The notes: generated by a model not told the origin, from the letters alone. A stretch of DNA of 64,000 bases from Acidimicrobiia bacterium (GCA_030584185.1 CP129495.1:1205628-1269627), one strand, 5' to 3'; shown: positions 18,112-34,301, numbered from the stretch's first letter. Program-made: numbers and translations.

Positions 18112-18248
18112 CGGGCCTCCGGGGCCAAGTGTGGCCCGCCCCGGGGCAATGCTCAACCGGAACCCCGGCGCGGCGGGCCGATCTCTATGATCCCGTCTCC
18201 ATCAATACGACCCGTTCGGGGCGGCGGGCCTGCACCCAAAGGAGGGCC

Positions 18249-19076
18249 GTGTCCGCCGTTCCCACACGCCGAGAGTTGATCGCCTGGCTCGCCGCATTCA
18301 CATTGCTGATCACGGTCGTCGTCGGCCTGAGGATGGACGAGGCGCGCTCGTACACTGTTGGGCCATCCACCGCCGTCGCCTATGTGGCAACCGGCGCCAA
18401 CTATCCCGACGCCCTGGCGGCCTCGTCGGCGGCGGCGCTCGGCCTGGGCCCGGTGCTGCTCACCGAGAAGGACTCGATCCCATCCGCAACCATGGGCGAA
18501 CTCACCCGGCTCGATCCACAGAAGATCTACCTGATGGGCGGGACCGCTGTGATCTCTTCCGGCGTCGAGAGCCAGCTGGTGACCCTCTTCGGCGCCGGCC
18601 GGGTGGAGCGGATCTCCGGCAACAACCGCTACGAGACCGCCGCCGCCCTGTCGGCGGCCACCTTCCCCACCAGTGGCCTCTATCCGAGGGCGGCGTATGC
18701 GGCCAACGACTCTCTTCCCGACGGCACCGGCGGCGAAAGCCAGATCCTGCTGACCTTGAACATCGATGCACCGTCTCGCGGCTACCTGCTCATCGACGCC
18801 GGGGCCGACGCCTACTACGGTCCGGCGCTTGCCAGCAGGTGCTGGGTGGCGGTCGACTCGAGCGCCCCGGTCACCGGATCCGTGCGCTACTTCACCCTCA
18901 ACGGCAGCCTCGCCGACAACGGCGAGGAGGACTGCACCACCGAGGTCGGCGAGATCGTGGACGCCGGGACCCACGTGGTCACCTTTCGCACCAATGCCGC
19001 GGCGGGAGTGAAGTTCAGTGGCGGCGCCCTGACGGTGCTGTGGGTGCCATTCGGACCGTTCGGGGAGCGACCCTGA
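18249..19076 (+). CDS. Secreted protein with a single CWB2 cell-wall-binding domain
   Basis: 275 residues. An N-terminal hydrophobic segment (LIAWLAAFTLLITVVVGL) acts as signal or anchor. Then comes one cell-wall-binding repeat 2 domain: VAYVATGANYPDALAASSAA, VLLTEKD, IYLMGGTAVIS and RISGNNRYETAAAL. The last 120 residues are a beta-rich domain without a recognised family and with two Cys. Start GTG 18249 follows aaaggaggg. The domain is homologous to those of the five-gene array at 22.8-31.1 kb, but this protein lacks the seven repeats. It is likely exported and wall-associated; the function of the C-terminal domain is unknown. Confidence 0.75.
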   Translation: MSAVPTRRELIAWLAAFTLLITVVVGLRMDEARSYTVGPSTAVAYVATGANYPDALAASSAAALGLGPVLLTEKDSIPSATMGELTRLDPQKIYLMGGTAVISSGVESQLVTLFGAGRVERISGNNRYETAAALSAATFPTSGLYPRAAYAANDSLPDGTGGESQILLTLNIDAPSRGYLLIDAGADAYYGPALASRCWVAVDSSAPVTGSVRYFTLNGSLADNGEEDCTTEVGEIVDAGTHVVTFRTNAAAGVKFSGGALTVLWVPFGPFGERP

Positions 19077-22654: not shown

Positions 22655-22748
22655 GGCGGAGTTCCCTCCCCGGGGAGGTGGTCCGATGGGCCGCAGGGGG
22701 CAGCGTTCCCTCCCCGGGGAGGTGGCCCGAAGGGCCGGAGGGGGCACT
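22655..22748. repeat. Two tandem type A palindromic repeats
   Basis: Two copies of the dispersed element, each a cctccccggggagg hairpin followed by ggtccgatgggcc or ggcccgaagggcc and agggggca. They sit between the hydrolase stop and the promoter of the first array gene. Confidence 0.7.
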
Positions 22749-22827: not shown

Positions 22828-22845
22828 GGCAGTCAGGAGACTGCC
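22828..22845 (+). promoter_or_regulatory. Hairpin carrying the Shine-Dalgarno sequence next to the start of array gene 1
   Basis: GGCAGTC, loop AGGA, GACTGCC: a perfect 7-bp stem whose 3' arm touches the ATG at 22846. A second AGGAGG lies just before the stem (22821-22826). An identical hairpin precedes array gene 5. Confidence 0.6.
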
Positions 22846-24378
22846 ATGTTCGCTCGTCCATCGATCCGGCCGATTACGTCGGTTCGAGTCCTGCTCGTCG
22901 TGCTGGTGACCGCCCTCGTCGGGACCCTCTACCGGGTGGCGGGAGCGGACTCACCTGATCCTCAGGCCGCCGAGGTGGCTTACATCGCCACCGGGACCAA
23001 CTTCCCCGACGCCCTCGGTGCCGGCCCTGCGGCTGCACTTGGCAACGGCCCGATCCTGCTGGTCCAGACCGACTCGGTGCCGTCGCAGACCACAACCGAG
23101 CTGAACCGGCTGAAGCCCAGGCTGATCGTGATAGTCGGGGGCACGGCGGTGGTCTCGACGACGGTGGAGAACACGCTGAAGGGCCTGTCGTTCGGTCCGA
23201 CCGTGATCCGGGTTTCGGGATCGAACCGGTATGCGACTGCGGCTGCGATCTCCGAGTCGGCGTTTCCGTGCGCCGACGGCGACGTGATGGCTGGACGAGA
23301 CCGCACCGGTGTGGTGTGCCGCCCGGCGTTGTCGGGGATGTGGAACACCCAGAAGGTCGTCGAGACAGGGTTCGTCGGCTACGACACCTCGCTGGCGATC
23401 GACGCCTTCGGCAATCCGGCGATCTCCTACTACGACGGCACCACCACCGACCTGATGCTGGTCAGGTGTTCGGATCCAGCTTGTGCCGGGTCCAAGACCA
23501 TCACCACTGTGGACCCCAATCTCTCGAACGGTCGCTACTCGTCGCTGGTGCTGGACTCCTCGGGCTTCCCGGTGATCTCCTACCACGACGCCAGCAGCGG
23601 CTTCCTGAAGCTGGCACGCTGCTCGAATCTCACCTGCACCGCCAAGACGCTGACCACGGTGGATGCGTCGTTCTCCGTCGGCAGCCACACCTCGCTGGCC
23701 TTGGACTCGTCCGGGCTCCCGGTGATCTCCTACCACGACGCCGACGGAATGGATCTGAAACTGGCCCGCTGCTCAAATGCCACCTGCAGTTCCGCAACGC
23801 TCGTGAGCGTGGACAGCGGATCGGCTGAAGTCGGCTGGTTCACATCGCTGGTCCTGGACTCGTCGGGGTTCCCGGTCATCTCCTACTACGACATGACCAA
23901 CACAGCTCTGAAACTGGCCCGCTGTTCTGATGCAACCTGCACCGCGAGGACGCTGACGACGGTGGACTCGAGCGGCGATGTCGGATTCGAGTCGTCGGTC
24001 GCCCTGGACACGTCGGGGTTTCCGGTGATCTCCTACCACGACGGGACCAACGGAGATCTGAAGCTGGCACGGTGCACCAACTCGGCATGCACCACGAACA
24101 CGCTGACCGTCGTGGACTCGACCGGCACGGTCGGGCGCATGTCCTCCCTGGTACTCGACAGGTCGCGCTTCCCGGTGATCTCCTACTACGACGGCAGTAA
24201 CGAGGACTTGAAGGTGGCCCGCTGCTCCAACGCGACCTGCTCATCGGCGACGATCACCACGGTGGACTCGGCTGGAACCGTCGGGTTCTACACGTCCCTG
24301 GCGCTCGACCCCGCCGGCAATCCGGTGATCTCCTACCAGGACTTCTCCAGCGTCGACCTGAAGCTGGCTTCGTTCTGA
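22846..24378 (+). CDS. CWB2 plus seven-repeat secreted protein, array gene 1
   Basis: 510 residues. A signal peptide (VRVLLVVLVTALVGTLYRVAGA, likely cut after AGA) precedes one CWB2 domain at about 40-140 ([44 protein letters not shown]). After a short Cys-containing linker come seven repeats of 46-50 residues, pattern [19 protein letters not shown], then DLKLARC-x4-C. The last repeat ends the protein at DLKLASF. Seven units of this size suggest a seven-bladed beta-propeller held to the cell wall by CWB2. The body is almost identical to array gene 3 and of equal length, while the 5' region matches gene 5. Ligand unknown. Confidence 0.75.
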   Translation: MFARPSIRPITSVRVLLVVLVTALVGTLYRVAGADSPDPQAAEVAYIATGTNFPDALGAGPAAALGNGPILLVQTDSVPSQTTTELNRLKPRLIVIVGGTAVVSTTVENTLKGLSFGPTVIRVSGSNRYATAAAISESAFPCADGDVMAGRDRTGVVCRPALSGMWNTQKVVETGFVGYDTSLAIDAFGNPAISYYDGTTTDLMLVRCSDPACAGSKTITTVDPNLSNGRYSSLVLDSSGFPVISYHDASSGFLKLARCSNLTCTAKTLTTVDASFSVGSHTSLALDSSGLPVISYHDADGMDLKLARCSNATCSSATLVSVDSGSAEVGWFTSLVLDSSGFPVISYYDMTNTALKLARCSDATCTARTLTTVDSSGDVGFESSVALDTSGFPVISYHDGTNGDLKLARCTNSACTTNTLTVVDSTGTVGRMSSLVLDRSRFPVISYYDGSNEDLKVARCSNATCSSATITTVDSAGTVGFYTSLALDPAGNPVISYQDFSSVDLKLASF

Positions 24379-24393
24379 GCGCCTGGTGAGAGG

Positions 24394-24422
24394 GGTTGGG
24401 GCCGGGCGGGCCGGCCCCAACC
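24394..24422 (+). terminator. Rho-independent-like hairpin after array gene 1
   Basis: A perfect 12-bp stem GGTTGGGGCCGG / CCGGCCCCAACC with loop gcggg lies 16 bp after the stop codon, without a clear T run. Similar hairpins follow array genes 3, 4 and 5. Confidence 0.65.
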
Positions 24423-24451
24423 TTCCACGCCCCGGCCGCGCGCCGCTCGCC

Positions 24452-24457
24452 TATTCT
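24452..24457 (+). promoter_or_regulatory. -10 box TATTCT of array gene 2
   Basis: TATTCT is 51 nt before the start codon; array genes 3 and 4 have TAGCCT or TAGTCT at exactly the same distance. Confidence 0.4.
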
Positions 24458-24502
24458 CTCGTCTCAACGCGGCCCCGCCACGGGCTTACCAAGGAGGGGA
24501 AC

Positions 24503-26026
24503 ATGTCCCTGTCGAAGCCGCCGGCGCTTCCGCTCCGTGCCCTGCTCGTGGTGCTGGTGACCCTCATGGCCGGTGTGCTGTACGGGGTGGCGGGGGCGGA
24601 CTCGCCGGATCCCCGCGGCACCGAGGTGGCTTACATCGCCACCGGGACCAACTTCCCCGACGCCCTGGGTGCGGGCCCTGCGGCTGCACTTGGCAACGGC
24701 CCGATCCTGCTGGTCCAGACCGACGCCGTGCCTTCTCAGACCACGGACGAGTTGAACCGTCTGAAGCCGCGCCTGATCGTGATCGTGGGTGGCACCGCAG
24801 TGGTGTCGACAGGTGTGGAGAACACGTTGAAGGGCCTTTCGTTCGGTCCCACGGTGCTGCGGGTGTCGGGTGCGAACCGGTATGCGACGGCGGCTGCGAT
24901 CTCGGAGTCGGCGTTTCCGTGTGGTGATGGCGAGGTGATGGCGGGAAGGGACCGCTCGGGTGGGGTGTGCCAGGACCCGCTTACGGGAATGTGGAGCATC
25001 CAGACGGTGGATTCGGGAGGAGATGTAGGCATCTACGTGTCGCTGGTCCTGGACGCCTTCGGCGATCCGGTGATCTCCTACCGCGACGAGACCAACACGG
25101 ATCTGATGTTGGCGCGCTGTTCGGATCCGGCCTGTTCGGGTACCAAGACGATCACCACGCTGGAGTCGTCGAACTCCTACTACCCGTCGCTGGCCCTGGA
25201 CTCGTCCGGGCTCCCGGTGATCTCCTACTACGACGCCGGCCCGGATGATCTGGAGCTGGTGCGGTGCAACGACCTCACCTGCGGTTCGAAGACCACGACC
25301 ACGGTGGATTCCAGCGGCTCCGTCGGTCTGCACACCTCGCTGGTCCTGGACTCGTCGGGCTTCCCGGTTATCTCCTACCGCAGCTTCTCCAGCGGTGACC
25401 TGAAGCTGGCCCGGTGCCACGACGCCACCTGCACCACCAAGACGATCGCCACCGTCGAGGACTCCTTCGACACCGGCTACTGGACCTCGTTGGTGCTCGA
25501 CACCTCCGGGTTCCCGATCATCTCCTACTACGACGCCTCCGCCCGGGATCTGAGGCTGGCGCGCTGCGCCGATCTCACCTGCTCGTCCAAGACGCTCCAG
25601 ACGGTCGACAGCGAGGTCTTCGATGTCGGCAAGTACTCGTCGCTGGCCCTGGACCGGTCCGGGTTCCCGATCATCTCCTACTACGACGTCACCAACGCCG
25701 ACCTGAAGGTCGCCCGATGCAGCGACGCCGCGTGCACGACCAGCGTCCGGACCGCCGTCGATCCGGGGAACTTGGTGGGAACGTACACGTCGCTGGTTCT
25801 CGACGTCGCGGACAACCCGGTGATCTCCTACTACGACGAGGCCAACGGGGACCTCAAGCTGGCCCACTGCAGGAACCCCGCCTGCACGAGCGGCACCGTG
25901 ATCGTCACGGTCCCCTCACTCGGCGATGTCGGCAAGTACTCGTCGCTGGCGCTCGACCCTGCGGGCAACCCGGTGATCGCCTACTACGACGGCTTCAACA
26001 CAGACCTGGCACTGGCTTCGTTCTGA
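24503..26026 (+). CDS. CWB2 plus seven-repeat secreted protein, array gene 2
   Basis: 507 residues with the same order as gene 1: signal peptide (RALLVVLVTLMAGVLYGVAGA), one CWB2 domain, seven ISYYD-type repeats ending in DLALASF. It is more divergent from genes 1 and 3 in the repeats; the third unit reads VISYRSFSSGD, losing the usual acidic residue after ISY. Most repeats keep Cys-x4-Cys. ATG 24503 follows aaggagggg by 3 nt and is preferred over the longer frame from 24386. The gene has its own promoter-like box and a weaker terminator, so it is probably transcribed singly. Confidence 0.75.
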   Translation: MSLSKPPALPLRALLVVLVTLMAGVLYGVAGADSPDPRGTEVAYIATGTNFPDALGAGPAAALGNGPILLVQTDAVPSQTTDELNRLKPRLIVIVGGTAVVSTGVENTLKGLSFGPTVLRVSGANRYATAAAISESAFPCGDGEVMAGRDRSGGVCQDPLTGMWSIQTVDSGGDVGIYVSLVLDAFGDPVISYRDETNTDLMLARCSDPACSGTKTITTLESSNSYYPSLALDSSGLPVISYYDAGPDDLELVRCNDLTCGSKTTTTVDSSGSVGLHTSLVLDSSGFPVISYRSFSSGDLKLARCHDATCTTKTIATVEDSFDTGYWTSLVLDTSGFPIISYYDASARDLRLARCADLTCSSKTLQTVDSEVFDVGKYSSLALDRSGFPIISYYDVTNADLKVARCSDAACTTSVRTAVDPGNLVGTYTSLVLDVADNPVISYYDEANGDLKLAHCRNPACTSGTVIVTVPSLGDVGKYSSLALDPAGNPVIAYYDGFNTDLALASF

Positions 26027-26116
26027 GCGGAGCGTGAGGGAGGTGGGCGGGTCGGCCTGCCAGCCCCGAACGGTCACCGCTCGGCCACCTCCATACGGAG
26101 GCTCGGTGCCCGGTAC

Positions 26117-26122
26117 TAGCCT
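26117..26122 (+). promoter_or_regulatory. -10 box TAGCCT of array gene 3
   Basis: TAGCCT is 51 nt before the ATG at 26168. The leader ends with cgagacaggaggc, shared with array gene 4. Confidence 0.4.
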
Positions 26123-26167
26123 CCCGCCCCATTGCGACCCCGATGTGGGGCGAGACAGGAGGCAGTG

Positions 26168-27700
26168 ATGTCCGTGCGCGCGTCGATCCGGCCGAGGGGT
26201 TTGCTCCTTGCGCTGCTCGTCGTGTTGGTGACCGCCCTGGTGGGGACTCTGTATCGGGTGGCGGTCGCAGATGCACCTGATCCTCAGGCCGCCGAGGTGG
26301 CTTACATCGCCACCGGGACGAACTTCCCCGACGCCCTCGGTGCCGGCCCTGCGGCTGCACTTGGCAACGGCCCGATCCTGCTGGTCCAAACCGACTCGGT
26401 GCCGTCGCAGACCACAACCGAGCTGAACCGGCTGAAGCCCAGGCTGATCGTGATAGTCGGGGGCACGGCGGTGGTCTCGACGACGGTGGAGAACACGCTG
26501 AAGGGCCTGTCGTTCGGTCCGACCGTGATCCGGGTTTCGGGATCGAACCGGTATGCGACTGCGGCTGCCATCTCCGAGTCGGCGTTTCCGTGCGCCGACG
26601 GCGACGTGATGGCTGGACGAGACCGCACCGGTGTGGTGTGCCGCCCGGCGTTGTCGGGGATGTGGAACACCCAGAAGGTCGTCGAGACAGGGTTCGTCGG
26701 CTACGACACCTCGCTTGCGCTGGACGCCTTCGGCAATCCGGCGATCTCCTACTACGACGGCACCGCCACGGACCTGATGCTGGTCAGGTGTTCGGATCCG
26801 GCCTGCGCCGGGTCCAAGACGATCACCACCGTTGACCCGAATCTCTCGAACGGTCGCTACTCGTCGCTGGTGCTGGACTCCTCGGGCTTCCCGGTGATCT
26901 CCTACCACGACGCCAGCAGCGGCTACCTGAAGCTGGCACGCTGCTCGAATCTCACCTGCACCGCCAAGACGCTGACCACGGTGGATGCGTCGTTCTCCGT
27001 CGGCAGCCACACCTCGCTTGCCCTGGACTCGTCCGGGTTCCCGGTGATCTCCTACCACGACGCCGACGGCATGGATCTGAAACTGGCCCGCTGCTCGAAT
27101 GCCACGTGCAGTTCCGCGACGCTCGTGAGCGTGGACAGCGGATTGGCCGAGGTCGGCTGGTTCACGTCGCTGGTCCTGGACTCGTCGGGGTTCCCGGTGA
27201 TCTCCTACTACGACATGACCAACACGGCTCTGAAACTGGCCCGCTGTTCGGATGCCACCTGCACCGCGAGGACGCTCACGACGGTGGACTCGGGAGTCGA
27301 TGTCGGCTTCGAGTCGTCGGTCGCCCTGGACACGTCGGGGTTTCCGGTGATCTCCTACCACGACGGGACCAACGGAGATCTGAAGCTGGCACGGTGCACC
27401 AACTCGGCATGCACCACGAACACGCTGACCGTCGTGGACTCGACCGGCACGGTCGGGCGCATGTCCTCCCTGGTACTCGACAGGTCGGGCTTCCCGGTGA
27501 TCTCCTACTACGACGGCAGTAACGAGGACTTGAAGGTGGCCCGCTGCTCCAACGCCACCTGCACGGCCAAGACCGTCGTCACGGTGGACTCGACCGGAAA
27601 TGTCGGCATGAACACATCACTGGCCCTGGACCCGACCGGCAACCCGGTGATCTCCTATTGGGACGTGACCAACAACGACCTGAAGCTGGCCTCGTTCTGA
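26168..27700 (+). CDS. CWB2 plus seven-repeat secreted protein, array gene 3
   Basis: 510 residues, colinear with gene 1 without an indel (every position offset by 3322 bp). From about residue 35 to residue 465 the two differ by few residues and very few bases, while signal peptide and last repeat differ. Features are as in gene 1: signal peptide ending VAVADA, CWB2 domain with [13 protein letters not shown], seven repeats with Cys-x4-Cys, end at DLKLASF. ATG 26168 has acaggaggcagtg before it. The near-identity suggests recent duplication or gene conversion. Binding partner unknown. Confidence 0.75.
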   Translation: MSVRASIRPRGLLLALLVVLVTALVGTLYRVAVADAPDPQAAEVAYIATGTNFPDALGAGPAAALGNGPILLVQTDSVPSQTTTELNRLKPRLIVIVGGTAVVSTTVENTLKGLSFGPTVIRVSGSNRYATAAAISESAFPCADGDVMAGRDRTGVVCRPALSGMWNTQKVVETGFVGYDTSLALDAFGNPAISYYDGTATDLMLVRCSDPACAGSKTITTVDPNLSNGRYSSLVLDSSGFPVISYHDASSGYLKLARCSNLTCTAKTLTTVDASFSVGSHTSLALDSSGFPVISYHDADGMDLKLARCSNATCSSATLVSVDSGLAEVGWFTSLVLDSSGFPVISYYDMTNTALKLARCSDATCTARTLTTVDSGVDVGFESSVALDTSGFPVISYHDGTNGDLKLARCTNSACTTNTLTVVDSTGTVGRMSSLVLDRSGFPVISYYDGSNEDLKVARCSNATCTAKTVVTVDSTGNVGMNTSLALDPTGNPVISYWDVTNNDLKLASF

Positions 27701-27709
27701 GTGCTCGGT

Positions 27710-27749
27710 GAGCGGGGGTGGGGCCGGACGGACCGGCCCTGCCCCGCTC
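27710..27749 (+). terminator. Terminator hairpin after array gene 3
   Basis: GAGCGGGG and GGGGCCGG pair with CCGGCCC and GCCCCGCTC around loop acgga, with a small internal mismatch, starting 10 bp after the stop. Confidence 0.6.
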
Positions 27750-27795
27750 AGGTCTCCTGGGGGTCATCACGCCGACCGGGCCGTGCCCGACGGCC

Positions 27796-27801
27796 TAGTC
27801 T
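27796..27801 (+). promoter_or_regulatory. -10 box TAGTCT of array gene 4
   Basis: TAGTCT is 51 nt before the ATG at 27847, the same spacing as for array genes 2 and 3. Confidence 0.4.
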
Positions 27802-27846
27802 CCGCCGTCGAGATGACCCGATCCCGGGTCGAGACAGGAGGCTGCG

Positions 27847-29370
27847 ATGCCCGCGCGCGTGTCGATCCGGCAGACGGGCCCGGTTCTCGTCCTGGCGGTG
27901 GTGGTGGTGACGGCTCTGGTCGGGTTGCTGTACCGGGTGGCGGTGGCGGATTCGCCGGATCCCCGCGGCGCCGAGGTGGCTTACATCGCCACCGGGACCA
28001 ACTTCCCCGACGCGCTGGGTGCGGGCCCTGTGGCTGCACTTGGCAACGGCCCGATCCTGCTGGTCCAAACCGACTCGGTGCCGTCGCAGACCACAACCGA
28101 GCTGAACCGGCTCGAGCCCAGGCTGATCGTGATCGTCGGGGGCACGGCGGTGGTATCGACGACGGTGGAGAACACGCTGAAGGCCCTGTCGTTCGGTCCG
28201 ACCGTGATCCGGGTGTCGGGTTCGAACCGGTATGCGACCGCGGCTGCGATCTCGCAGCAGGCGTTTCCGTGTGCCGATGGTGAGGTGATGGCGGGACGAG
28301 ACCGCAGCGGTGTGGTGTGCCGCCCGGCGTTGTCGGGGATGTGGAACACCCAGACGGTCGACTCGACCGGGACCGTCGGCTGGTACCCGTCGCTGGCTCT
28401 GGACGCCTTCGGCAACCCGGTGATCGCCTACTACGACGCCACCAACCATGATCTCGAGCTGGCCCGCTGTCATGATGCCGGCTGCACTGGCAAGACGCTC
28501 ACGACTGTTGATTCGTCCGGCTTCGTCGGGAAATACCCGTCACTGGCGTTGGACGGGTCCGGGTTCCCGGTGATCTCCTACCACGACGAAAGCAACGGCG
28601 ATCTGAAGCTGGCCCGGTGCTCGAACCTCAATTGCACCAGCAAGACGCTCACGACGGTGGACCCCGACCACGCGGGCTGGTTCACGTCGCTGGTGTTGAA
28701 CGCATCCGGAAACGCGGTGATCTCCTACTTCGACTACACCAGCACGGACCTGAAGCTTGCCCGCTGCGAGGACGCCAACTGCACCACCAGCACACGGACC
28801 ACGGTCGACACGACCGACAACGTCGGCTGGTACACGTCGCTGGTGTTGGACGCGGCCGGGCTCCCGGTGATCTCCTACCTCGACGCCGCGTTCGGGAGCC
28901 TGGAGCTGGCCCGCTGCTCCAACGCGACCTGCACGACAAAGACGCTCACCACCGTGGATGCTGCCGCCGGCCTCGGCTCCTACACATCGCTGGCGCTGGA
29001 TGCATCGGGCTTCCCGGTGATCTCCTACTACGACGCCATAGAGGCCGACCTGATGGTGGCCCGCTGCTCCAACGCGACCTGCACGACCAAGACGCTCACC
29101 ACGGTGGACTCGGCCGGCACCGTCGGCTTCGAATCGTCTCTGGTGCTCGACCCCACCGGGAACCCGTTGATCTCCTACTACGACCTCACCAACCAGGATC
29201 TGAAGCTGGTGCGATGCTCGAACGCGACCTGCACGTCCAGGAAGATCGTCACGGCCGACTCGACCGGTGACGTCGGCTGGTACACCTCGCTGGTGCTCGA
29301 CCCTGGAGGCAACCCGGTCGTCGCCTACTACGACGGCAGCGGCCTCGACCTCCGGGTCGCCTCCTACTGA
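27847..29370 (+). CDS. CWB2 plus seven-repeat secreted protein, array gene 4
   Basis: 507 residues. Signal peptide ([22 protein letters not shown]), one CWB2 domain in which SESAF of genes 1-3 reads SQQAF (shared with gene 5), and seven repeats. The repeats differ from the other copies in their exposed positions ([33 protein letters not shown]), suggesting different binding surfaces on the same scaffold. The protein ends at DLRVASY. ATG 27847 follows acaggaggctgcg. It is preceded and followed by its own promoter-like and terminator-like sequences. Confidence 0.75.
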
Positions 29371-29383
29371 GCGCCCGGTGAGC

Positions 29384-29416
29384 GGGGGTGGGGTCGGACG
29401 GGCCGGCTCCACCCCT
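29384..29416 (+). terminator. Terminator hairpin after array gene 4
   Basis: GGGGTGGGGTCGG pairs imperfectly with CCGGCTCCACCCC around acggg, 14 bp after the stop. Confidence 0.55.
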
Positions 29417-29451
29417 TGGGGGTTGTGGCGACGCGACGGGTTCTGGTTGCG

Positions 29452-29457
29452 TAGCCT
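29452..29457 (+). promoter_or_regulatory. -10 box TAGCCT of array gene 5
   Basis: The sequence gcgtagcctgccgggac and its surroundings repeat the promoter region of array gene 1. Confidence 0.5.
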
Positions 29458-29491
29458 GCCGGGACGCACAGGGGCGCACTCACAGGGAGGG

Positions 29492-29509
29492 GGCAGTCAG
29501 GAGACTGCC
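29492..29509 (+). promoter_or_regulatory. Hairpin carrying the Shine-Dalgarno sequence next to the start of array gene 5
   Basis: Identical to that of array gene 1: GGCAGTC, AGGA loop, GACTGCC, directly before the ATG at 29510, with gggaggg just upstream. Confidence 0.6.
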
Positions 29510-31063
29510 ATGTCAGCTCGTTCGTCCATCCGGCCGATGGCGCCGGTTCGTGTCCTGCTCGTGGTGTTGATGATCCTGGTGGGGTTTGGGGTGGCGGGTG
29601 CGGATTCGCCGGATCCCCGTGGCGCCGACGTGGCTTACATCGCCACCGGGACCAACTTCCCAGACGCCCTGGGTGCGGGCCCTGCGGCTGCTTTGGGCAG
29701 CGGGCCGATCCTGCTGGTCCAAACCGACTCGGTGCCGTCGCAGACCACAACCGAGCTGAACCGGCTCGAGCCCAGGCTGATCGTGATCGTCGGGGGCACG
29801 GCAGCGGTCTCGACGACGGTGGAGAACACGCTGAAGGGCCTGTCGTTCGGTCCGACCGTGATCCGGGTGTCGGGTTCGAACCGGTATGCGACTGCGGCTG
29901 CGATCTCGCAGCAGGCGTTTCCGTGCGCCGAGGGTGAGGTGATGGCGGGACGCGACCGCCAGGGTGTGGTGTGTCGTCCGGAGCTGTCGGGGAACTGGAG
30001 CACCCAGGAGGTCGACTCGACCGGGACCGTCGGCGCTTACACGTCGATCGCTCTGGACGCCTTCGGCAACCCGGTGATCTCCTATCACGACTCCACCAAC
30101 ACGTCGTTGAAGCTGGCGCACTGTGACGACCCGGCGTGTTCGGGTGGTGGCGAGTCGATCGTCACCGTGGACAACACCGCCAATCTCGGCTACTACACGT
30201 CGCTGGCTTTGGATTCTTCTGGGTACCCGGTGATCGCCTACTACGACGCCACCAACACTTCGTTGAAGCTGGCACACTGCAACGACCCGAACTGTTCGAG
30301 TGGTGGCGAGTCGATCGTCACCGTGGACAACACCGCCAATCTCGGCTGGTACACGTCGCTGGTGCTCGACTCCTCCGGGAACCCGGTGATCGCCTACCAC
30401 GACGTCACCAGCGCCTCGTTGAAGCTGGCGCACTGTGACGATGCGAACTGTTCGGGTGGCGGCGAGTCGATCGTCACCGTGGACAACACCGCCGATGTCG
30501 GCTACACCCCGTCGCTGGTTCTCGACGCCGCCGGGAACCCGGTGATCTCCTACTACGACTCCTCGAACTCCTCGTTGAAGCTGGCGCACTGCAACGACGC
30601 GAACTGTTCGAGTGGTGGCGATTCGCTCGTCACCGTGGACAACGATGCCGAGCTCGGCCGGTACACGTCGCTGGTGCTCGACTCCACCGGGTACCCGGTG
30701 ATCTCCTACTACGACAACGCCAACACCTCGTTGAAGCTGGCGCACTGCAACGACGCGAACTGTTCGAGTGGTGGCGATTCGATCGTCACGGTGGACAACA
30801 CCGCCGATGTCGGCTGGTACACGTCGCTGGTGCTCGATTCCGCCGGGAACCCGGTGATCTCCTACTACGACCTCACCAACTCGGCCCTGAAGGTGGCGCA
30901 GTGTGACGACGCGAACTGTTCGGGTGGTGGCGAGTCGATCGTCACCGTGGACAACACCGCCACCGTCGGCTGGGACTCGTCGCTGGTGCTCGACCCGGCC
31001 GGCAATCCGGTCGTCTCCTACTACGACGCCACCAACGGCGACCTGAATGTGACCTCGTTCTGA
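29510..31063 (+). CDS. CWB2 plus seven-repeat secreted protein, array gene 5
   Basis: 517 residues, the most homogenised repeats of the family. After a shortened signal peptide (VRVLLVVLMILVGFGVAGA) and the CWB2 domain come seven units, of which the inner ones are almost identical to each other: SLKLAHC-x4-C, then a Gly-rich turn (SGGGESIVTVDNTA). The inserted Gly/Ser turn makes units slightly longer than in genes 1-4. It ends at DLNVTSF. The near-identity of inner units at DNA level indicates recent repeat expansion or homogenisation within the gene. The longer frame from 29267 overlaps gene 4 and is not used; ATG 29510 has the hairpin Shine-Dalgarno sequence. Confidence 0.75.
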   Translation: MSARSSIRPMAPVRVLLVVLMILVGFGVAGADSPDPRGADVAYIATGTNFPDALGAGPAAALGSGPILLVQTDSVPSQTTTELNRLEPRLIVIVGGTAAVSTTVENTLKGLSFGPTVIRVSGSNRYATAAAISQQAFPCAEGEVMAGRDRQGVVCRPELSGNWSTQEVDSTGTVGAYTSIALDAFGNPVISYHDSTNTSLKLAHCDDPACSGGGESIVTVDNTANLGYYTSLALDSSGYPVIAYYDATNTSLKLAHCNDPNCSSGGESIVTVDNTANLGWYTSLVLDSSGNPVIAYHDVTSASLKLAHCDDANCSGGGESIVTVDNTADVGYTPSLVLDAAGNPVISYYDSSNSSLKLAHCNDANCSSGGDSLVTVDNDAELGRYTSLVLDSTGYPVISYYDNANTSLKLAHCNDANCSSGGDSIVTVDNTADVGWYTSLVLDSAGNPVISYYDLTNSALKVAQCDDANCSGGGESIVTVDNTATVGWDSSLVLDPAGNPVVSYYDATNGDLNVTSF

Positions 31064-31076
31064 GCGCCCGGTGAGA

Positions 31077-31110
31077 GGGGGTGGGGCCGGACGGACCGGC
31101 CCTGCCCCCC
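31077..31110 (+). terminator. Terminator hairpin after array gene 5
   Basis: GGGGGTGGGGCCGG pairs with CCGGCCCTGCCCCCC around loop acgga, about 14 bp past the stop codon. Confidence 0.6.
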
Positions 31111-31189
31111 GGAAGCCCCCACACATCTCGGGGAGGCCGCCCTCCCGAGCCGGCAACCGGTGTCATGTCGGGCCGCCACCGCGCCTTGC

Positions 31190-31419: not shown

Positions 31420-32403
31420 GTGAGCGAGACCCGGGTCGAGGTGGCGGGGCGCACCGTGCGGGTTTCCAGCCCCGAGCGCGTGCTCTTCCCCGAGACCGGG
31501 ATCACCAAGCTCGATCTGGTGGGCCACTACCTCCGGTGTGCCCCCGGTGCCGTGCGAGGGGTGTGGCGGAGGCCGACCTCCCTGAAGCGCTGGCCAGGAG
31601 GAGCGTCACACGACTTCTTCTTCACCAAGCGGGCACCAGGGGCGATCACCCACTCCCACCCGGTCCGGTTCCCATCCGCTCGGTTCGGGGTGATGCCCTA
31701 CGTCGAGGACGCCACCGACATCGTGGAGCAGGTGCAGCTCGGGGTCATCGACCTGAACCCGTGGAACGTTCGCATCTCCGACCTCGACCATCCCGACGAG
31801 CTCCGGTTCGACCTAGACCCGACCCCGGGGTTCGGCTTCGAGCACTGCAGCGCAGTCGCCGGGGAACTCCGAGTCCTCCTCGAGGAGATTGGCCTGATCG
31901 GCTGGCCCAAGACCTCCGGATCGCGTGGCATCCACGTCTACGTGAGGATCGAGCCTCTCTGGGATCAGTTCCAGGTGAGGCGTGCCGGCCTTGCGTTGGC
32001 GAGGGAGTTGGAGCGACGCACCGACCTGGTCACCACGGCGTGGTGGAAGGAGGAGCGCTCCGGGGTGTTCATCGACTACAACCAGAACGGCCCGGACCGT
32101 ACCGTCGCCTCGGCGTACTCGGTGCGCCACACCGGCCTGGTGTCGACGCCGTTCGCATGGGGGGAACTGGACACGATCGACCCGACGGCGATGACCATTC
32201 CAGAGTTCGCCTCCCGATGGGAGGCTGTCGGCGACGTGACCGCCGGAATCGACGCGGCCTCCGGAGACCTCTCGCCGGTGATGCGGATGGTCGATGCCGA
32301 CGAGGATCGGGGCTTGGGGGACGCCCCCTGGCCACCTCACTTCCCGAAGATGCCCGGGGAGCCTATGCGCGTCCAGCCGAGCCGCCGTCGACCCGAGAAG
32401 TGA
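31420..32403 (+). CDS. Stand-alone LigD-type polymerase/primase domain protein
   Basis: 327 residues corresponding to the polymerase domain of LigD, an archaeo-eukaryotic primase-type enzyme that fills gaps during non-homologous end joining. The catalytic metal motif is RFDLDPTPG, with the third acidic residue expected near FIDYNQN. SGSRGIHVYV is the conserved Ser-His loop, and FFFTKRAPGAITH lies near the 5'-phosphate pocket. It lacks ligase and phosphoesterase domains; a ligase lies convergently on the other strand. No ku gene is in the window. It starts with GTG 31420 after a leaderless box. Confidence 0.9.
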   Translation: MSETRVEVAGRTVRVSSPERVLFPETGITKLDLVGHYLRCAPGAVRGVWRRPTSLKRWPGGASHDFFFTKRAPGAITHSHPVRFPSARFGVMPYVEDATDIVEQVQLGVIDLNPWNVRISDLDHPDELRFDLDPTPGFGFEHCSAVAGELRVLLEEIGLIGWPKTSGSRGIHVYVRIEPLWDQFQVRRAGLALARELERRTDLVTTAWWKEERSGVFIDYNQNGPDRTVASAYSVRHTGLVSTPFAWGELDTIDPTAMTIPEFASRWEAVGDVTAGIDAASGDLSPVMRMVDADEDRGLGDAPWPPHFPKMPGEPMRVQPSRRRPEK

Positions 32404-32460: not shown

Positions 32461-33260
32461 GACATGCCCTCACCCGGGAGGTGACCCGAAGGGCCGGAGG
32501 GGGCACAGACGCGACACGGCTCATGGCAGGCTCGGGTATGGACCGCCGTTGCTTCTGCCCCCCTCCCGGCTTCGCCGGACTCCCCCCTACGGGGGGAGAA
32601 AACACCGGGCAGGAGGGACGACATGCCCTCCCCGGGCGGTGGCCCGAAGGGCCGAAGGGGGCACAGACGCGACCAGGCATGTGCCGCGTTCCCTCCCCCG
32701 CAGGGGGAGGTGGCCCGAAGGGCCGAAGGGGGCACAGACGCGACCAGGCATGTGCCGCGTTGCCTCCCCCGCAGGGGGAGGTGGCCCGAAGGGCCGAAGG
32801 GGGCACAGACGCGACCAGGCATGTGCCGCGTTGCCTCCCCCGAAGGGGGAGGTGGCCCGGAGGGCCGGAGGGGGCACAGGCGCGACACGGCATGTGCCGC
32901 GTTGCCTCCCCCGAAGGGGGAGGTGGCCCGGAGGGCCGGAGGGGGCACAGGCGCGACACGGCTCATGGCAGGCTCGGGTATGGACCGCCGTTGCTTCTGC
33001 CCCCTCCCGGCTTCGCCGGACTCCCCCCTACGGGGGGAGGAAACACCGGCCCGGGAGGTCGACATGCCCTCCTCGGGAGGTGACCCGAAGGGCCGAAAGG
33101 GGCACAGACGCGACCAGGCATGCGCCGCGTTCCCTCCCCCGCAGGGGGAGGTGGCCCGAAGGGCCGAAGGGGGCAACCCGCGACACGGCTCATGGCAGGC
33201 TCGGGTATGGACCGCCGTTGCTTCTGCCCCCTCCCGGCTTCGCCGGACTCCCCCCTATGA
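32461..33260. repeat. Array of palindromic repeats with 71-bp period
   Basis: Type A units contain a cctcccccgaagggggagg hairpin, then a ggcccgaagggcc hairpin, then gagggggca and a linker with gcgaccaggcatgtgccgcg. Their ggcccg motifs start at 32483, 32641, 32712, 32783, 32854, 32925, 33082 and 33153; adjacent ones are exactly 71 bp apart. Three type B units (starting near 32519, 32961 and 33189) carry related hairpins in inverted orientation after ctcatggcaggctcgggtat. The array fills the 32404-33281 gap; open frames across it are repeat artefacts. The remaining flanks show nothing recognisable. Confidence 0.85.
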
Positions 33261-33281
33261 GGCAAGGGAGGAAGACGGCGC

Positions 33282-34301
33282 TCAGGCCCCCACCACCGCC
33301 GAGAATCCCAGGCCAGACGGACGCTGCAACTGTTCCATGGTGCAGTCCCTTGCCTCCTTGTCGGGTCGCCAGCGCTCGAACCTGGTGGCGTGCCGGAAGC
33401 GGCCCCCTGTCAGCTGGTCGTATGAGACCTCGACGACCAGCTCCGGTCGGACCGGCACCCACGAAAGGTCCTTGTCCCCGCTCCACCTGCTCTCGGCGCC
33501 AGGCCGCCGCACCGCACCGTCGGGACCGAACGCGTCGGCGGCAACCATCCCCTCGAGCCGCTCCATGATCGCCACCCGATCGCTCGCCGGGAACCCGGAG
33601 CAATGTCCGATGAAGTGCAACCCGGCCCCGGCGTACAGACCGAGCAGGATCGAGCCCACGCCCGTACCGACGGTGTGGAGGCGATAGCCGCCGACCACGC
33701 AGTCCACGGTTCGCCGATGCTTCACCTTCACCATCGCCCGCTCACCCTCCCGGTAAGGAGCGTCGATCGCCTTGGCCACGATCCCGTCGCAGCCCGACGC
33801 CTCAAGCTCGTCGAACCAGCGCTCGGCGACGGTGCGGTCAACGGTGGAAGGCGTCAGGTGCCACCTACCTGGCATGGGGAACAAGGATTCGAGCTCCGCC
33901 CTGCGGCGCGTGAACGGCTCGCCCCTCAGGTCCTCGCCCCCCACCGCCAGCAGGTCGAAGGCGACCAGGTCCGCTGGGGTCTCCAGTGACAGCCTCTCGA
34001 TCCGCGACGTCGCCGGATGGATCCGGTTCTGGAGGCCATCGAAGTCGAGTCGGTCGCCCTTGACCACCACTACCTCACCGTCGACCACGGTGCCGGCAGG
34101 CAGACCCTCGAGCGACGGCCCCAACTCCGGGAAGTAGCGGAGCAGCGGCTTGTGGTTGCGGGAGTCGAGGCGCACCGGCACGCTCCAGGCGATCGCCCTG
34201 AAGCCGTCCCACTTGGGCTCATATGCCCAGTCGCCTTCCGGGATGGCATCCCGGGTGCGAGCCTCCACCGGGGTGATCGGCGGCAGAAACGGGTGTGCCA
34301 T
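33282..34301 (-). CDS. ATP-dependent DNA ligase (LigC/LigD ligase-domain type)
   Basis: 339 residues. Ligase motif I is EPKWDGFRA with the adenylated Lys. Motif III-like VAFDLLAV, motif IV DGIVAK and motif V VKVKHRRTVD follow, with an OB-fold C-terminal domain to about residue 320. It seals nicks using ATP, probably with the polymerase encoded convergently at 31420 in a split form of LigD. The length suits stand-alone LigC. The ATG at 34301 is 6 nt from TAGCCT on the minus strand. Confidence 0.92.
   Translation of the reverse strand: MAHPFLPPITPVEARTRDAIPEGDWAYEPKWDGFRAIAWSVPVRLDSRNHKPLLRYFPELGPSLEGLPAGTVVDGEVVVVKGDRLDFDGLQNRIHPATSRIERLSLETPADLVAFDLLAVGGEDLRGEPFTRRRAELESLFPMPGRWHLTPSTVDRTVAERWFDELEASGCDGIVAKAIDAPYREGERAMVKVKHRRTVDCVVGGYRLHTVGTGVGSILLGLYAGAGLHFIGHCSGFPASDRVAIMERLEGMVAADAFGPDGAVRRPGAESRWSGDKDLSWVPVRPELVVEVSYDQLTGGRFRHATRFERWRPDKEARDCTMEQLQRPSGLGFSAVVGA

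Follow-up and report, generated by a model that had tools for sequence, protein, structure and literature searches.

Five tandem genes at positions 22846-31063 of a 64,000-nucleotide stretch of an Acidimicrobiia bacterium (GCA_030584185.1, CP129495.1:1205628-1269627; the whole stretch is referred to as the window) encode proteins in which a single CWB2 domain is linked to a predicted seven-bladed β-propeller. We propose that the propellers are non-enzymatic binding heads, held on an anchor assembled from the CWB2 domains of three chains. To this proposal as a whole, in which we infer the trimer, the wall attachment and the ligand, we assign a probability of roughly 45%. The architecture is a variant of the CWB2-anchored surface proteins, and it is new in its form of a single CWB2 domain combined with a propeller. 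Anchoring by CWB2 has been worked out almost wholly on C. difficile, with three non-interchangeable copies per chain, and a stable lineage of single CWB2 domains that carries several heads in two genera raises the question of an anchor built between chains. If true, such an anchor would be an uncomplicated way to display several heads at once, and mixed trimers could form where the heads diverge on nearly uniform anchors.

The five-gene array and its paralogs

The five genes are a real, coherent family. All lie in tandem, as a preliminary description of the window had it. They are on the forward strand, and the located open reading frames (ORFs) are 507-517 residues long. The first gene, g1 (22846-24378, 510 residues), encodes a putative signal peptide, a CWB2 domain at residues 43-139 (22972-23262; PF04122, E 1e-17), a hairpin linker with 15 residues between its two cysteines, C142 and C158 (23269-23319; strands are predicted at the same place in g4), and a propeller that begins with an N-terminal d strand of blade 7, followed by blades 1-7 (23341-24375). 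The second, g2 (24503-26026, 507 residues), has its CWB2 domain at 24623-24913 and seven blades at 24992-26023. The third, g3 (26168-27700, 510 residues; CWB2 at 26294-26584, seven blades at 26663-27697), is a near copy of g1, with 93% identity in the propeller and 100% in the CWB2 domain. In g4 (27847-29370, 507 residues), the CWB2 domain (27973-28263) matches that of Cwp6 (phmmer, whole-protein E 2.7e-14), and the propeller (28342-29367) consists of a strand at residues 167-172, assigned as strand d of blade 7, and seven blades. The last, g5 (29510-31063, 517 residues), has its CWB2 domain at 29627-29917 and seven blades of 52 residues at 29996-31060. The starts of g2, g3 and g5 were shifted inward to a start codon with an AGGAG-like site (AGGAGGGG for g2); the longer mechanical starts fall in the intergenic region or, for g5, inside g4. 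All five proteins begin with a hydrophobic segment. The N-terminus of g4 contains a hydrophobic helix in the predicted model (residues 13-28) and a cleavage-like site, as judged by eye.

The presence of one CWB2 domain per protein, also noted earlier, was confirmed for all five, with PF04122 scores of 62-67 bits (cut-off 24.9; E ~1e-16 to 1e-18); the domains of all five were also assigned with our own CWB2 model. Likewise, a hidden Markov model of the blade found exactly seven repeats per protein, the last of which reaches the final residue. Short Pfam matches to DUF1936, PyrI_C, Myotub-related and OTU1_UBXL on the cysteine repeats (12-30 residues, recurring from blade to blade) were rejected as compositional, none being significant alone. 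The partial NCBIfam matches, to S-layer SlpA in the CWB2 part and weak ones elsewhere, were all far below the cut-off.

Two more paralogs are located in tandem on the other strand at 878-881 kb, about 350 kb from the array. They also contain one CWB2 domain and seven blades, and their propellers are 52-53% identical to that of g4. Among the paralogs, the CWB2 domains are 88-100% identical, while the propellers are 49-66% identical for most pairs and 93% for g1 and g3; the propeller of g5 has diverged the most from that of g4. Duplication would have given rise to seven paralogs with near-uniform anchors and diverged heads. Fourfold degenerate sites are also more alike in the CWB2 domain than in the propeller for g1 and g4 (0.87 versus 0.59, p 5e-5), as well as for g1 and g5 and for g3 and g4. 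Strong gene conversion of the anchors was considered and rejected: it would be partial at most, no pair with g2 was significant and the pairs are not independent. A comparison of the propeller against phages gave no match and against plasmids two weak matches of about 25% identity, which gives no sign of an origin from mobile elements.

The repeats are predicted to form a closed seven-bladed ring

Structures of g4 (m3c0c3f4e16dd) and g5 (m07270207c0b3) were predicted with AlphaFold2 from an alignment of the five proteins, which is shallow. The g4 model contains 28 strands, seven times four, from residue 167 onward, and the g5 model has the same strand order. The propeller pLDDT is mostly 80-95 in the two models, and mostly near 90-95 in g4. 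The first strand of the g4 model (residues 167-172) precedes blade 1, whereas the C-terminal segment supplies just three strands to the last blade, so that strand d of blade 7 is provided by the N-terminal strand. The ring would start with the outer strand of its last blade, and the N- and C-terminal strands would zip it shut.

A search with Foldseek put the g4 model among seven-bladed propellers, with the PLL lectins of Photorhabdus as the top matches (best E 2.5e-14, TM ~0.72-0.78 by target). With VIA-align, the highest score was obtained for the propeller of CylK (Z 34.8), followed by the PLL lectins (Z ~29-32, rmsd 2.5-2.8 Å over ~310 residues) and by integrin alpha and streptogramin lyase (Z 29-30). 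The alignments to known closed rings cover residues 160-507 of the model with Z scores of 29-35. A closed seven-bladed ring is thus strongly indicated by the models. Ring closure had originally been suggested on the grounds that all five copies have seven repeats. The suggestion holds on the basis of the closed rings predicted for both g4 and g5, the structural matches and the blade number in distant homologs, but the five copies are duplicates and do not provide independent evidence.

The cysteines are distributed differently from what was first described. A Cys-x4-Cys motif had been assigned to all seven repeats, but it is present in six of seven repeats per protein, that is in 42 of the 49 blades of the seven paralogs, and the C-terminal repeat lacks it in every one. 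The seventh conserved pair is instead located in the linker before the propeller (C142 and C158 in g4, 16 residues apart), so that each paralog has exactly 14 cysteines. Nor did the repeat length of 46-50 residues hold up, since the measured spacing is 48-54. The motif spans the turn between strands c and d in all blades of the g4 model other than blade 7, which lacks it because its strands c and d are located at opposite ends of the chain. One disulfide across this turn would stiffen each of blades 1-6, and a disulfide hairpin would precede the ring.

Blade number is retained in distant homologs

Because the five genes are copies, their own agreement on seven blades says little, and homologs were therefore compared from 84,980 species genomes (10 loci), 395 genomes of the class and 396 genomes of the phylum, with blades counted by an iterated blade profile. 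Seven blades were identified in 35 complete ORFs, including the seven paralogs of this genome, and another three complete ORFs had 13-14 blade matches, which we read as two rings. Together, these ORFs span this phylum, archaea, Planctomycetota and Elusimicrobia. Counts of five, six and eight were mostly due to missed or spurious single matches, which showed up as a doubled spacing or as weak matches standing alone. The widely varying repeat numbers that would speak against a ring were not observed, the sole exceptions being two homologs with truly six repeats, one from Methanoregula with long insertions (L018) and one from Planctomycetota (L019). Judging from these counts, blade number is strongly conserved between phyla, in contrast to the remainder of the protein, which varies.

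The homologous heads occur together with SLH domains (L079), collagen-like stretches (L077 and L108), PKD domains (L016), an amidase and RTX repeats (L101), a PEP-CTERM-like tail (L019, by eye) and CWB2 domains. In the propeller head, a single blade family has moved among surface anchors that are unrelated to each other without a change in the size of its ring. About fourteen blades are present in the proteins encoded at L099 (1481-5098, with three CWB2 domains at the end of the protein) and L103 (973-3615). At L108 (1145-5829), in another family of the phylum, there are three tandem genes for proteins with a collagen-like segment and seven blades; here, too, surface proteins with propeller heads come in tandem copies, but on another stalk.

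The combination of CWB2 and a propeller had been considered unusual, which is half right: the pairing recurs with tandem CWB2 domains in three other genomes, whereas the single-CWB2 form was found only here among 138 genomes of the order. In G013, from the same family, three CWB2 domains are followed by propeller blades that run off the contig end (L097). The other two genomes belong to the same phylum. G620 encodes a protein that combines a ring and PKD with three CWB2 domains (L098) and the protein of about fourteen blades with three CWB2 domains mentioned above (L099), and G630 encodes a ring with two CWB2 matches (L100). As in the array, blades of this family are joined to CWB2 within a single chain, but these proteins contain two or three CWB2 domains, placed N- or C-terminally, rather than one. 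Among the 138 genomes of the order that were searched, the full single-CWB2 propeller protein was identified only in this genome. Proteins from G013 match its front half only (to model position 145), and proteins from G009 match its back half only (from position 134), which comprises the cysteine hairpin and the propeller. On this pattern, we read the protein as two fused modules, which occur separately in sister genera, and assign the hairpin to the head module. The closest propeller outside this genome (59% identity) is in G009 (L076) and is preceded by the same kind of cysteine hairpin, but this protein lacks CWB2 and has an HDHDGTY-repeat, tail-fiber-like stalk.

Single CWB2 domains group apart from triplet repeats

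This genome contains 41 CWB2 matches over the cut-off. About ten proteins have the usual tandem set, and eleven have a single CWB2 domain, seven of which are the propeller proteins; none of these seven contains three tandem copies. The remaining single-CWB2 proteins end in heads of other kinds, for which Pfam gave no match, and a sister genus likewise has single CWB2 domains with other heads. One of these proteins, probably secreted, is encoded on the forward strand of the window at 18129-19076 (PF04122, 6e-16); its domain, L117 in the phylogeny described below, groups with the other singles. A head of about 130 residues without a Pfam match, alike across two genera, is shared by the single-CWB2 proteins at 18129-19076, L069, L070 (from 2049), L114 and L117; by eye, it is perhaps a C1q/TNF-like jelly roll.

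Among the 14 genomes of the family, CWB2 is present only in G000 and G013, and a phylogeny was inferred from 59 domains of these two genomes. The fifteen single CWB2 domains, from two genera, are explained by one change on the tree, as in 88% of the bootstrap trees, with moderate support (81/70). The triplet repeats 1, 2 and 3 fall apart from the singles, largely according to their position, except that one repeat of the triplet-propeller protein in G013 adjoins the singles. The grouping of the singles apart from the triplet repeats makes it unlikely that they are recent truncations of these triplets. The PILL motif is invariant in all seven paralogs.

A putative anchor built between chains

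In C. difficile, all three CWB2 domains are needed for anchoring, and the deletion of one abolishes it (PMC4973711). Crystal structures show a trefoil that is held by the PILL motif, with the polymer bound across all three domains (reviewed in PMC5842191). The C. difficile Cwp proteins, such as Cwp6 (PDB 5j72) and Cwp8 (PDB 5j6q), have CWB2 with the PILL motif as here, but contain three tandem copies rather than one, and their heads are amidases or other domains and not propellers. The simplest way for a single CWB2 domain to work would be to associate with two more, each from a separate chain. With one CWB2 per chain as the anchor, three polypeptides would each contribute one PILL-bearing domain to a trefoil assembled on a wall glycopolymer, and the trefoil would hold up three propellers. 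Collagen-like segments trimerize in known cases, and the homologous heads on collagen-like stalks point toward a trimer as well. Since the anchors are near-identical, hetero-trimers with different heads could also form. Taken by itself, this form of the anchor, with one CWB2 domain and one ring per chain giving three-headed binders, possibly of mixed paralogs, is put forward tentatively.

It is also possible, though doubtful, that the single CWB2 domain is a weak monomeric or dimeric wall binder, which would display the same head one or two at a time. The phage endolysin CD16/50L binds surface polysaccharide by a single, simplified CWB2-derived domain that must self-associate into a homodimer (PMC9045149), and proteins with one or two CWB2 copies have been recorded as rarer forms (PMC5817068). 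Although it is a dimeric phage enzyme, CD16/50L also counts in favor of an anchor assembled between chains, as it shows that a lone CWB2-derived unit may have to self-associate in order to bind. Loss of anchoring upon deletion of one domain in C. difficile and retention of the PILL contact of the trimer in seven of seven paralogs argue against a monomer or dimer. Alternatively, the CWB2 domain may no longer bind the wall, in which case the proteins would just be released; in the study of Willing et al., proteins that had fewer than three CWB2 domains were recovered from the supernatant (PMC4973711). This is rather improbable, given that CWB2 is the most conserved part of the proteins here and that the single domain persists in two genera with several heads.

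The propeller as a putative binding head

The residues that are invariant in the propellers of the seven paralogs include no histidine, arginine or glutamate and one lysine, and are mostly Leu, Asp, Val, Gly, Cys, Ser, Pro and Tyr. The lack of an invariant His, Arg or Glu makes a catalytic role unlikely. Sequence entropy is higher in the d-a and b-c loops (2.0 and 2.5 bits) than in the a-b and c-d loops (1.1 and 1.7 bits). In propellers, the d-a and b-c loops share one face, and variation concentrated on this face is as expected if it is used for binding and has diverged from one paralog to the next. Via these loops the head would bind its ligand, for which a glycan or some other polymer of the surface is most likely. 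The preliminary description of the proteins as possible adhesins or binding proteins fits the evidence.

The propeller could be a PLL-type lectin that holds sugars in pockets between its blades, in line with the top Foldseek matches and with the VIA-align scores, which follow directly after CylK. The diverged set of paralogs also resembles the five PLL paralogs of Photorhabdus (PMC12203525). However, this is unlikely: identity to the PLL lectins is about 10%, integrin alpha and streptogramin lyase score nearly as high, and the tryptophan on which the sugar stacks (PMC6943638) is not kept per blade, with no per-blade Trp column and any Trp in 16 of 49 blades. The PLL and PHL lectins of Photorhabdus thus have the seven-bladed fold, predicted here, and a set of paralogs in common with the array, but they differ in lacking a wall anchor and in their Trp pockets.

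The BNR_4, GH145, PL25 and sialidase families use catalytic His, Arg, Glu or Tyr residues. BNR_4 (PF15892) scored over the cut-off for g5 only (40.5 versus 27.3 bits, the other genes falling below), and the structures of BT3686 (GH145) and ulvan lyase (PL25) match the g4 model, with a propeller ring in common at 12-17% identity. A carbohydrate-active enzyme of this kind is nevertheless very improbable, as the BNR_4 match spans about 42 of 272 model positions, which is one blade, and as the propellers here have no conserved His or Arg and no invariant Glu.

Several points weigh against a binding propeller on a between-chain trimer. The three CWB2 repeats of C. difficile are not interchangeable (PMC4973711), and a homotrimer would need symmetric contacts. 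The CWB2 parts of both models have a pLDDT of about 50, and AlphaFold2 may favor neat rings when run on five close sequences with near-identical repeats. The six repeats of L018 and L019 depart from the ring size, and no ligand site was identified in the propeller, the PLL Trp pockets not being conserved.

Expression signals and neighboring elements

Stem-loops are predicted on the forward strand after g1 (24379-24440, z -2.6), g3 (27701-27762, z -3.1), g4 (29371-29432, z -1.9) and g5 (31064-31125, z -2.0), with a weak one after g2 (26027-26088, z -0.2). Together with a ribosome site for each gene, the stem-loops after four of the five genes make separate transcription units likely. An Rfam search of the window gave no match. 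A perfect 18-base inverted repeat, GGCAGTCAGGAGACTGCC, is located directly before the ATG of g1 (22828-22845) and g5 (29492-29509), and these are the only two copies in the genome. Its loop contains the ribosome-site AGGA. A role in the control of translation is possible; the fold is not significantly better than those of shuffled sequences.

A G+C-rich palindromic repeat (GGGGAGGTGGCCCGAAGGGCCGGAGGG and relatives) occurs at 22655-22742 and at ~32475-33267. Across the genome it has 36 occurrences, distributed over both strands, while the reversed control gave none. Downstream of the array, a LigD primase-polymerase (31420-32403, forward strand) and an ATP-dependent ligase (33282-34301, reverse strand) are encoded by separate, convergent genes, between which the repeat is clustered at a spacing of 71 bases and creates long spurious ORFs.

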